A DNA stretch of 64,000 bases from contig JAHEYT010000024.1 of NCBI GenBank assembly GCA_023251455.1, forward strand, positions 1 through 64,000. Direction: 5' to 3'. Of this stretch, positions 24,616-27,280 are shown in pieces. A model generated the notes under the pieces. That model worked only from the letters and a program-made list of their open reading frames with translations, made no database searches and was not told the DNA's origin. The DNA comes from Bacteroidota bacterium (GTDB lineage: Bacteria > Bacteroidota > Bacteroidia > Bacteroidales > Prolixibacteraceae). How positions within the stretch are numbered: the first letter of the stretch is position 1; every line of letters starts with the position of its first letter. A program made the position numbers and the translations under genes.

Positions 24616-25254
24616 ATGATGAACAAACTCAAAAAGACTTTACTTTTCCTGTCTCTCGCAGGATTACTTGCCTTCACATCCATAGCGCCCAAAATTAAAC
24701 TCCAATCGGGGGATCTTCTGTTCCGTGAAAAGTCGTCCGAAAACATTTCGGAAGCAATCGATCAGGTGACACAAACTTCCGGATCAACCCATTTTTCGCA
24801 TGTGGGCTTGGTTGAAGTTACCGATTCCGGAGTTGTGGTGTTACATGCTTATCCCGACGGAGGAAGCTGCATTGTTTCACTCAACGAGTTTCTGCACCCC
24901 AAAGGCGATTCGGTGAGGGTGATTGCCTACCGGTTAAAAAAGGATGGACAAAAAGCAATTTCGGCCGCCATCCAAAAAGCGCATTCGATGCTGGGCAAAT
25001 CGTACAATTTCAGTTATGTCCTATCCGAAACAGTCCACTATTGTTCCGAGTTTGTGTATCTGGCCTTTGCTGCCGACTCAGTTTTTAAGCTTGAACCAAT
25101 GACATTTAAGGACCCAAAAACCGGAAATTTTCCTACCGCTTGGGTGGAATACTATCAGAAAATGGGAATTGAAATTCCGGAAGGCAAACTGGGTTGCAAT
25201 CCCAATGGACTGGCGGCTTCCGGAAAATTGGAAAAGCTTGGAGAAATCCAATAA
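24616..25254 (+). CDS. YiiX/permuted papain-like (NlpC/P60 superfamily) enzyme
   Basis: 212 aa; LQSGDLLFREKSSENISEAIDQVTQTSGSTHFSHVGLV and HYCSEFVYLAF. Confidence 0.82.
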   Translation: MMNKLKKTLLFLSLAGLLAFTSIAPKIKLQSGDLLFREKSSENISEAIDQVTQTSGSTHFSHVGLVEVTDSGVVVLHAYPDGGSCIVSLNEFLHPKGDSVRVIAYRLKKDGQKAISAAIQKAHSMLGKSYNFSYVLSETVHYCSEFVYLAFAADSVFKLEPMTFKDPKTGNFPTAWVEYYQKMGIEIPEGKLGCNPNGLAASGKLEKLGEIQ

Positions 25255-25264
25255 CTAATTGGAG

Positions 25265-25419
25265 CTAAAGCCCGGAAATCTTTTCACATCAATACCCGTC
25301 AGCTAAAGCAGACGGCAAAGAATAGTGCTTTGAATAAGTGTGTCGTTTGATTAGGGGCGATATCCTTTGCCGTTGGCTTGAGCCAACGGACAGAATCGAA
25401 GAACGATTCCGGGCTTTAG
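25265..25419. repeat. Composite palindromic REP/BIME-like element upstream of the RAYT (hairpins 1 and 2)
   Basis: Outer inverted repeat CTAAAGCCCGGAAATC / GATTCCGGGCTTTAG enclosing hairpins CCGTCAGCTAAAGCAGACGG+CAAAGAATA (25296-25324, +) and CCGTTGGCTCAAGCCAACGG+CAAAGGATA (25361-25389, -). Confidence 0.9.
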
Positions 25420-25509
25420 CCCCAACCAGTAACAGAAATAAAAAGAATGTCTATAAATTATCTGGCTAACATTCACTAAATTAGTACTTCAACCCAAAAA
25501 TCACTCATC

Positions 25510-25944
25510 ATGTCATACGTCAAAATCTGGCTGCATTGTGTCTGGAGCACCAAAAACAGAGACCAAATTATATCCCATTCGTTTCGTCCGGAGCTACTGA
25601 AACATTTCAGGGAAAATGCTGATGAAAAGAACATTATTCTGGATTATATCAATGCACATGAGAATCATGTTCATGCCCTTATCAATTTGGGGAAACAGCA
25701 AAATCTGGCTACCATCATGCAGTATTTAAAAGGTGAAAGTTCGTTCTGGATCAATAGCAAAAAAATCCTTTCCTCTCAATTTTCATGGCAGGACGATTAT
25801 TTTGCAGTTTCAGTCGGCCACTCGCAGGTAGAACGAATTAGAAACTACATCAAAAATCAGGATGAACACCACCAGAAAATGAGTTGGGAGGAAGAGGTTG
25901 ATCTATTCATGAAAAAATATGGATTTGAGCAGATAAAGGGCTAA
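25510..25944 (+). mobile_element. IS200-like / REP-associated tyrosine (Y1 HUH) transposase CDS
   Basis: 144 aa; HENHVHALINL HUH-type motif; VGHSQVERIRNYIKNQDEHHQKMSWEEEVDLFMKKYG typical C-terminus with catalytic Tyr candidate. Confidence 0.9.
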
Positions 25945-25970
25945 AGCACAATCATGGCAGTCCTTTCAAT

Positions 25971-26064
25971 CCGTCCCATAAATGGGACGGCAAAGGATAA
26001 TCACTTCTTACAGCAGCTAACTTTATTCATGGCATTATCCTTTGCCGTCTGCTTTAGCTGACGG
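25971..26064. repeat. REP/BIME-like inverted hairpin pair downstream of the RAYT (hairpins 3 and 4)
   Basis: CCGTCCCATAAATGGGACGG+CAAAGGATA (25971-25999, +) and reverse-strand CCGTCAGCTAAAGCAGACGG+CAAAGGATA (26036-26064, -). Confidence 0.9.
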
Positions 26065-27280
26065 ATGGCGAAACTGAATTCTGCTTCAATGCCTTTTTCG
26101 CATTGTGCCTTGCCGAAACATACAGTGCTCCAGCCGCCGTACAAAAATAAAAACACATCAGGATAAGCATTTGCCAGTATTCGTGCCTGATTTCAGATAT
26201 ACCAACACCCATGCTACGAATACGCAGATAGGCCGGAATCATAATGGTTGAAGGGAATAAATGTGCCAGGTTATACAGGAAAGGAGGAATGGATGAGGCA
26301 GGCCAGGATACTCCGCTCAGGAAAATAACAATGGGCGACAAAAATACCATGAACATGATCGAAGATTCGCGCCGTTTGAACAGAACCGAACAGGTAATTC
26401 CCATAAATATAACCGACAACAAAAATGGCAATGTCAGCATCAGAACAGTGAGGTAGTTACCCTGATTGGGGTAATTGAACCACGAATGAATCCAGATCAT
26501 GGTAAAAACGCAGTTTACCGCGTAAATGGTGAGGTACGACAAGGACTTCCCAAATAAAATGGGCAAAACTCCGCCCTTTGTCAGCGCCACCGGAACCAGA
26601 AAACTGTCCTGTTTCTTTTCTTTAGCGGTTCCGCCGAGCATCCCGATTCCGATCAGCAAAGTTTGCTGAAGGATGATGATAATGATTCCGGGCATCATCG
26701 ACGAACCATATCCTGACGAAGGATTAAACCAATAATGAATATCGGCGACCAACGGATCGCGCAATTGCGCCGCCTGATTATACGTTTTCCCTTCCATCAT
26801 CAGCTTTTTGATTTCAACACCCGCAGAAAACGTTCCAACGGTTTTAACCGAACCACTAAGCAATTGGCGATAAATCAGGAAATAACTTCCATCGGCAAAC
26901 ACCGAAACATTTGATTGTTTCCCGTTCAGGATGTCCTTTTCGAAATCCTCCGGAATGACCAGAATTCCGCCTGAATTACCTTCAAAGAAATCTTTTTTGG
27001 CTTCATCCAGACTGGTGGCAACCCGATTAATTTCAATCTGTTCGGCACCTTCAAGCATTTTAATCAACTGGTGACTGGTGGTTGTGCGATCCAAATCAAC
27101 GATGGTGGTTTTCAGTTCGCGAACGACTTCATTTTTATAGGCAATGGCATAAACAATCGGGTAAATCATCAACGCCCCGACCAAAATCAGGATCGCACCG
27201 CTGTCTTTGCGGATATCCCTCAATTCGTCGCGGTAGAATTTTCCCGTCATTTGAATGCCTTTGTGTATTTTCTTGAACAT
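26054..27280 (-). CDS. ABC-2 type transporter permease (YhgE/DrrB-like)
   Basis: 408 aa; N-terminal TM, periplasmic domain, C-terminal TM cluster; paralogous architecture to the next gene. Confidence 0.87.
   Translation of the reverse strand: MFKKIHKGIQMTGKFYRDELRDIRKDSGAILILVGALMIYPIVYAIAYKNEVVRELKTTIVDLDRTTTSHQLIKMLEGAEQIEINRVATSLDEAKKDFFEGNSGGILVIPEDFEKDILNGKQSNVSVFADGSYFLIYRQLLSGSVKTVGTFSAGVEIKKLMMEGKTYNQAAQLRDPLVADIHYWFNPSSGYGSSMMPGIIIIILQQTLLIGIGMLGGTAKEKKQDSFLVPVALTKGGVLPILFGKSLSYLTIYAVNCVFTMIWIHSWFNYPNQGNYLTVLMLTLPFLLSVIFMGITCSVLFKRRESSIMFMVFLSPIVIFLSGVSWPASSIPPFLYNLAHLFPSTIMIPAYLRIRSMGVGISEIRHEYWQMLILMCFYFCTAAGALYVSARHNAKKALKQNSVSPSVS

Follow-up and report, generated by a model that had tools for sequence, protein, structure and literature searches.

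The 64,000-nucleotide stretch of DNA analyzed here, hereafter the window, carries a small Y1 transposase gene that stands between two pairs of short hairpins. The locus raises two questions: to which class of transposase the enzyme belongs, and whether the hairpins are repeats that belong to it. A preliminary description had read the gene as a RAYT flanked by four 20-nt hairpins in two inverted pairs, and all four hairpins were recovered where they had been placed. The features of the locus are listed below, with the hairpins and their tags labeled REP 1 to REP 4.

25254..25277, plus strand: left arm of an outer inverted repeat, ACTAATTGGAGCTAAAGCCCGGAA; 88% complementary to the right arm
25296..25324, minus strand: REP 1, tag TATTCTTTG (25324-25316) and hairpin (25315-25296); covariance model, 48.1 bits
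25361..25389, plus strand: REP 2, tag TATCCTTTG and hairpin CCGTTGGCTTGAGCCAACGG (25370-25389); pattern and covariance model
25407..25430, minus strand: right arm of the outer inverted repeat (TTCCGGGCTTTAGCCCCAACCAGT on the plus strand); 88% complementary to the left arm
25510..25944, plus strand: tnpA-like gene, 144 aa, putative Y1/HUH nuclease assigned to TnpA-Y1 subclass 1.2; Pfam, NCBIfam, alignment and AlphaFold
25971..25999, minus strand: REP 3, tag TATCCTTTG (25999-25991) and hairpin (25971-25990); pattern and covariance model
26036..26064, plus strand: REP 4, tag TATCCTTTG and hairpin CCGTCTGCTTTAGCTGACGG (26045-26064); pattern and covariance model

The pattern CCGTN4TNNAN4ACGG was matched four times in the 64-kb window, each time at the transposase locus, a number never attained in the shuffled window (mean, 0.06). 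REP 1 and REP 2 form one inverted pair and REP 3 and REP 4 the other, both with a tag-to-tag gap of 36 nt, and the tails (CAAAGAATA once, CAAAGGATA three times) face inward in each pair. An A-A mismatch at stem pair 6 was confirmed in two of the four hairpins; in REP 1 it is the single mismatch, read on the plus strand. The proposed layout of two 9-nt arms around a 2-nt loop is better described as 8 bp with a TNAA tetraloop whose T and A are able to bond. On the strand that carries the tag, each unit has the sequence 5'-TATYCTTTG-CCGTNNNN-TTNA-NNNNACGG, so that what had been called a tail lies 5' of the hairpin. Known REPs carry GTAG on the 5' side of the hairpin, the same side as the tag complementary to CAAAGRATA here. 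The inverted repeat that had been seen to enclose the upstream pair exists and is longer than claimed, with 24-nt arms.

Three other readings of these hairpins were tried and set aside. Rfam gave no match above the gathering score in 25000-26300, and the hairpins have no T-run following them as terminators would. A promoter was considered because TATCCTTTG is similar to the -7 box of Bacteroidota (TAnnTTTG), but it contains an extra base, and the tags of other clades are unlike that box.

The transposase gene and its class

The window protein scored 94 bits against Pfam PF01797. It passed the NCBIfam IS200 model (70 bits; cut-off, 55), which was matched by all 48 homologues scanned, and failed the REP-transposase profile NF047646 (27 bits; cut-off, 80). 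Its HUH motif is NHVH (H53/H55), and the nucleophile Y113 lies within YIKNQDEHH. On alignment, H53, H55, Y113 and Q117 match the catalytic residues of IS608 TnpA; the catalytic set, whose absence had been named in advance as grounds for rejecting the preliminary reading, is intact. The AlphaFold model (pLDDT 91) had ISDra2 and IS608 TnpA as its top PDB matches (E ~1e-9 to 1e-8, 19-23% identity), with TnpA-REP 4er8 ranking lower (E 5e-6, 12% identity). Y-x3-NP is absent from the protein, in which the Y motif takes the form YIKNQ..HH, and the corresponding signature Y-x3-Q-x2-HH was found in 119 of 120 proteins. In Table 1 of PMC6006769, this signature defines subclass 1.2, for which the REP column reads 'no'; the text of that paper describes the subclass as generally without IS200 terminal structures and gives its traits as ~148 aa, occurrence in Bacteroidota and Cyanobacteria, and low copy number. 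Because the IS200 profile was passed, the REP-transposase profile failed and the motif is that of subclass 1.2, RAYT is the wrong class, and the modeled fold is likewise nearer to the ISDra2 and IS608 TnpAs than to TnpA-REP. Judged from sequence, the window protein belongs to TnpA-Y1 subclass 1.2 and is IS200-like.

The gene has a C92 peptidase gene and ABC-2 transporter genes as neighbors, and no tnpB occurs among the neighboring open reading frames (ORFs) examined, as the preliminary description had noted. The host genome (G000) contains three full-length Y1 genes, all with the subclass 1.2 signature, and one short fragment; it holds no Y1 gene outside subclass 1.2. The clade of the window protein is present in single copy, and the other two full-length genes encode proteins 28-29% identical to it. 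Multiple near-identical gene-containing copies, the mark of IS200 in subclass 1.1, were absent from this genome.

Repeats in the host genome and its relatives

The 5.55-Mb host genome was surveyed by pattern and covariance searches. Exact matches to ACGGCAAAGRATA numbered 56, and the reversed control pattern gave none. A 29-nt covariance model built from 19 distinct copies returned at least 71 copies at E<0.05, with 150 of 4015 first-look candidates scored, such that weak copies may be missed. Three of the 56 exact copies fell inside ORFs of at least 150 aa, compared to 70% of random positions. Thirty-eight of the 71 copies make up 19 head-to-head pairs, and the gap between tags was 35-38 nt in 13 of these and 23-25 nt in 5; further copies are single or in tandem arrays (C31, C77 and C90). 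In the stems, 94.7% of cells were paired, and the covariation score of 0.423 exceeded that of shuffled alignments (0.132), none of 500 being as high. The locus therefore combines what characterizes a REPtron, a single-copy Y1 gene between hairpins of a family dispersed in intergenic DNA, with what characterizes REPINs, an inverted REP pair of defined spacing as the main unit. The further host copies anticipated in the preliminary description were thus found, almost all intergenic and over half paired. Its proposal of a distinct Bacteroidota REP family holds insofar as the repeats are dispersed, mostly paired, carry a tag specific to Bacteroidota and behave like REPs and REPINs, but not for the enzyme, which is not a RAYT.

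Several other properties of the host repeats were recorded. The two spacer classes differ by about one helical turn. A logo of the flanks displayed a weak ACA/ATA preference adjoining the hairpin, with no clear cleavage site evident from it. Two alternative outer modules lie at a fixed distance, 19-23 nt outside the REP hairpin: GGGCTTTA(G), at 21-23 nt, in 9 of 45 host genomic copies, and CCGTCCG in 6 of 45. A 28-nt GTTCGACTGAGCTCACGCCGAAGTCTGA sits within the hairpin loop of several repeats (L013, L015, L016, L018 and L030, on C29, C31 and C48), a pattern that resembles repeated insertion of a second small palindrome at the identical spot. The two other full-length subclass 1.2 genes (on C7 and C90) are accompanied by short hairpins of another kind, based on CCGCTACGCGG; of the 19 occurrences of this sequence in the host genome, 12 are at the C7 and C90 genes. 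One of them (L003, G000:C90:78728-82072) has a near-identical block of ~290 nt on both sides (1130-1420 and 1875-2170) containing several ACCGCTACGCGGT hairpins, which amounts to a large direct repeat around the gene.

Comparison was then extended to the family Prolixibacteraceae. Genomes of the window's genus held 1 to 127 copies of the CAAAGRATA motif, and most other genera held 0-3, the background level. Within the genus, the median copy number was 51 with a close orthologue and 15 without (Mann-Whitney p=0.004), an association to which shared ancestry, repeat assembly gaps and gene loss can contribute. The expectation that repeats would be present only in genomes carrying the transposase was accordingly borne out in part: genus members without an orthologue have fewer copies but do not lack them. 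Many copies were present with no recognizable cognate gene in G009 (73), G004 (35), G011 (32) and, outside the genus, G055 (63), and the enzyme is thus not needed for the repeats to persist. For G055 and G009, the explanation is either gene loss, assembly gaps or cross-mobilization by another subclass 1.2 enzyme. A candidate for a decayed cognate gene in G009 (C60:46413) turned out to be a truncated gene of the other subgroup, 43-45% identical to L002 and L003. At the end of this truncated subclass 1.2 gene (L254, G009:C60:46400-46700) stands a CCGT/TATCCTTTG repeat that may be an insertion. Apparent in-frame stops in L045-L051 were likewise discarded, as they proved to be the true stop codon, a few codons earlier.

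Two orthologue copies each were found in G006 and G012. In G014, the gene occupies the same place with the same neighbors as in the window, which argues that it does not move with the repeats in the short term; elsewhere, gene neighborhoods differ. This G014 locus (L036) has two repeat pairs per side compared to one in the window, with a period of ~183-186 nt, an arrangement that is a local tandem amplification at the transposase locus.

Empty sites were sought by comparing 11 sites with up to four genus members, with intergenic DNA mostly too diverged for alignment. The sole clean case of presence and absence was site 3, between G000 and G014, where a whole framed unit was gained or lost; several other sites were shared between genomes, and no consistent target sequence or cleavage site emerged from the 11 sites compared. 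The unit missing from the G014 site is framed by the GGGCTTTA module, and its outer modules are left unaccounted for by the REPtron-like model favored below. At sites 9, 10 and 12, single copies were kept at orthologous intergenic positions, with diverged flanks and compensatory stem changes between species; at site 12, an orthologous single repeat has a different stem sequence in each of several genomes, four species in all, and its stem stays paired.

Hairpins across subclass 1.2

To place the locus among its relatives, 84,980 species genomes were scanned with a 20-row alignment, which yielded 80 loci, mostly from Bacteroidota with some from Ignavibacteria, Pyrinomonadaceae, other Acidobacteria, Calditrichia and Neomarinimicrobiota. 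Scan and family loci together gave a test set of 117 nonredundant subclass 1.2 loci, in which a hairpin was defined as 20 nt with a T..A loop at most 300 nt from the gene. Hairpins were present upstream at 97 loci, downstream at 84, on both sides at 73 and on either side at 108, whereas dinucleotide shuffles gave 0.25, 0.35 and, for both sides, 0. In windows 800-1100 nt away, a hairpin was found in 4 of 217. The result is not circular, because loci were chosen by protein only, and the counts include close relatives that are not independent of each other. Forty of 118 sampled Bacteroidota genomes, about a third, had a match at E<=1e-30.

The hairpins are of a common design: a stem of 8 bp, a loop of TRAA, which is TTYA when read on the strand with the tag, and a tag particular to each clade. 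The loop was TAAA or TGAA in 179 of the 184 nearest hairpins. Orientation was also consistent: the nearest upstream hairpin was on the minus strand in 85 of 99 cases and the nearest downstream hairpin on the plus strand in 76 of 85, with tags directed away from the gene. The 5' tag is TTTG in the window clade and ATTG, CTAA or ATTA in others. Four loci labeled Acidobacteria or Pyrinomonadaceae (L102, L159, L122 and L148) form one group inside the Bacteroidota tree and have the same hairpin design, which suggests either horizontal transfer of the gene plus its hairpins or an error in MAG binning.

Tags and feet follow the enzyme. On the protein tree, tag class required 29 changes, compared to a shuffled mean of 69.7 (minimum, 63), and CCGT foot versus other required 5, compared to 33.0 (minimum, 27); the tree was built on few columns and leaves many forks open, and the contrast with the shuffles is nonetheless large. 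In 56 of 73 loci, the tags of the two flanks had their first three bases in common (permuted mean, 24), and tag and foot were common to both flanks far more often than in permuted flanks. Genome-specific counts agree with the tree. CCCC..GGGGTTAGT occurred 19 times in G110, never in the window's genus and 1-3 times in other carriers, often at the gene; CACC..GGTGTAA occurred 24 times in G055, 8 times in G048 and never in the window's genus. In G095, where the flanking hairpins bear the tag CAATGGATA, there were 64 matches to CCGT..ACGGCAAWGRA, which covers this tag, versus 11 to CAAAGRATA. The same pattern was found 131 times in Adhaeribacter soli, 57 times in Mucilaginibacter endophyticus and not at all in the Runella, Flavobacterium and Cyclobacterium carriers, which have other feet. 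Each transposase type thus has its own repeat family, as in REPtrons, and with foot and tag particular to each enzyme clade, the enzyme and its repeats seem to have diverged in step. Amplification is not universal, however, as the strict motif is nearly confined to the transposase locus in many carriers of other clades.

Competing explanations and likeness to known systems

Together, the comparative evidence makes a REPtron-like system with an IS200-type transposase (class 1, subclass 1.2) in place of a RAYT the probable explanation of the locus; it would be REPtron-like in function without being a RAYT by descent. A dimeric enzyme would bind the hairpins as single-stranded DNA (ssDNA), probably at replication forks, and would recognize them through the foot and the conserved T of the loop. 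Next, Y113 would nick the DNA adjoining the hairpin and form a covalent link. By analogy with the guides of IS608 and the GTAG of REPs, the nick site may be picked by the 5' tag, which is TTTG in the window clade and ATTG or CTAA elsewhere, and the paired unit would be copied or moved in trans as ssDNA while the gene itself stays put. The GTAG tag of REPs has been reported to stand where IS200/IS605 elements have the guide sequences that determine their cut site, and in the loop of the Marinomonas Mb REP, T12, T13 and A15 are essential and N14 is free, which is the TTNA pattern (PMC8266576).

An ordinary IS200-type insertion sequence would also place hairpins beside such a gene. Gene and flanking hairpins would then be mobile together, and the dispersed hairpins would be the ends of deleted copies. 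IS200/IS605 TnpAs do have subterminal hairpins, the NCBIfam match is to IS200, G006 and G012 have two orthologue copies each, and gene neighborhoods differ outside G014. We nevertheless regard this explanation as unlikely: the host has ~70 hairpins for one gene copy of this clade, its other Y1 genes are 28-29% identical and have different hairpins, the repeats are paired at fixed short spacers and not 600-700 nt apart, and the gene has stayed in place in G014. It is similarly improbable that selection retains the hairpins for a regulatory or terminator function in the host, or as sites bound by one of its proteins, and that the transposase is incidental to them. Terminators would be expected to have a T-run, hairpins flank the transposase at 108 of 117 loci and occur in 4 of 217 windows farther off, the transposase tree is mirrored in foot and tag, and non-carrier genera are at background counts. 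The single copies kept with compensatory stem changes between diverged flanks at sites 9, 10 and 12 speak for host selection, and regulatory and structural roles have been given to RAYT-associated REPs (PMC8266576); co-option of some copies by the host is compatible with a REPtron-like system.

We consider it very unlikely that another enzyme mobilizes the repeats, be it a class 2 RAYT or, in the manner of MITEs, a DDE transposase that uses the outer CTAAAGCCCGG repeat, with the Y1 gene serving as an insertion target. Some units are framed by an outer inverted repeat, and repeats persist without the orthologue, as such an enzyme would allow. The host, however, has no Y1 gene outside subclass 1.2, the outer modules occur in a minority of copies while hairpin and tag are constant, and it would be a strange preference to target the vicinity of one gene in 117 loci, each time with the hairpin specific to the clade.

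If the REPtron-like reading is right, REP and REPIN populations extend beyond class 2 RAYTs and tags of the GTAG type, a group listed as REP-less is among the more widespread such systems (about a third of sampled genomes of the phylum), and common unexplained intergenic palindromes of Bacteroidota genomes gain an origin. Measured against the open-access literature, a conserved hairpin partner for a subclass reported as REP-free is a new claim; ISfinder or subscription papers may hold earlier mentions. More tentatively, and with somewhat less than even confidence, we propose that subclass 1.2 may be a second, independent REPtron-like origin, from class 1 (IS200) transposases, common across Bacteroidota and with members in other phyla. 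The subclass would have had its tag rewritten repeatedly (TTTG, ATTG, CTAA, ATTA), and its clades would form a naturally occurring set of ssDNA nucleases with new targets, the cleavage site having changed along with the tag. Tag swaps between such matched enzyme-hairpin pairs, with their natural tag differences, could test how Y1 enzymes choose a cleavage site and whether REPs do spread through the action of a domesticated transposase.

Among known systems, IS608 and ISDra2 TnpA of the IS200/IS605 family share their fold and catalytic residues with the window protein, and in their published mechanism the enzyme recognizes the hairpin by a T in its loop and guides determine the site. The window system differs from them in lacking multiple near-identical elements and in having short-spaced hairpin pairs dispersed without the gene. 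CGTC-tagged REPs, which include some from Bacteroidetes, similarly have 8-9 bp stems and 4-5 nt loops and occur in pairs (PMC3733652), but they bear an unpaired CGTC tag and a CCA tail, neither of which occurs in the tag and tail sequences here, and they are reported to be without an associated transposase. Subclass 2.6 (RAYT group 5, Bacteroidetes) and class 3 resemble the present case in their atypical, non-GTAG hairpins near a Y1 gene, some of them multicopy, and class 3 has been described as resembling both an insertion sequence and a REPtron (PMC6006769). Subclass 2.6 proteins are distinguished by a length of ~179 aa and Y-x3-NP, and class 3 members by their occurrence in Planctomycetes, Acidobacteria and Proteobacteria, a length of ~178 aa and a CnGA foot. 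With subclass 1.2 as published (PMC6006769), the window system agrees in signature, length (~144 aa), a mainly Bacteroidota distribution and low copy number, but that subclass is listed without REPs, whereas nearly all loci sampled here are hairpin-flanked and the hairpins are amplified in several genomes. RAYT/TnpA-REP REPtrons of Escherichia coli, Pseudomonas and Stenotrophomonas (PMC3116915, PMC8266576) likewise have a Y1 gene in single copy with REPs of its own on its flanks and, with REPINs or BIMEs, the same dispersed intergenic inverted pairs with fixed spacing and a tag 5' of the hairpin; the TTNA loop here also resembles the TTTA loop of the Marinomonas Mb REP, in which T12, T13 and A15 matter. 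The window system departs from them in its class 1 protein, in the TTTG, ATTG, CTAA or ATTA that stands at the 5' hairpin foot in place of the GTAG/GTRG tetranucleotide of RAYTs, and in a uniform 20-nt hairpin throughout the subclass.
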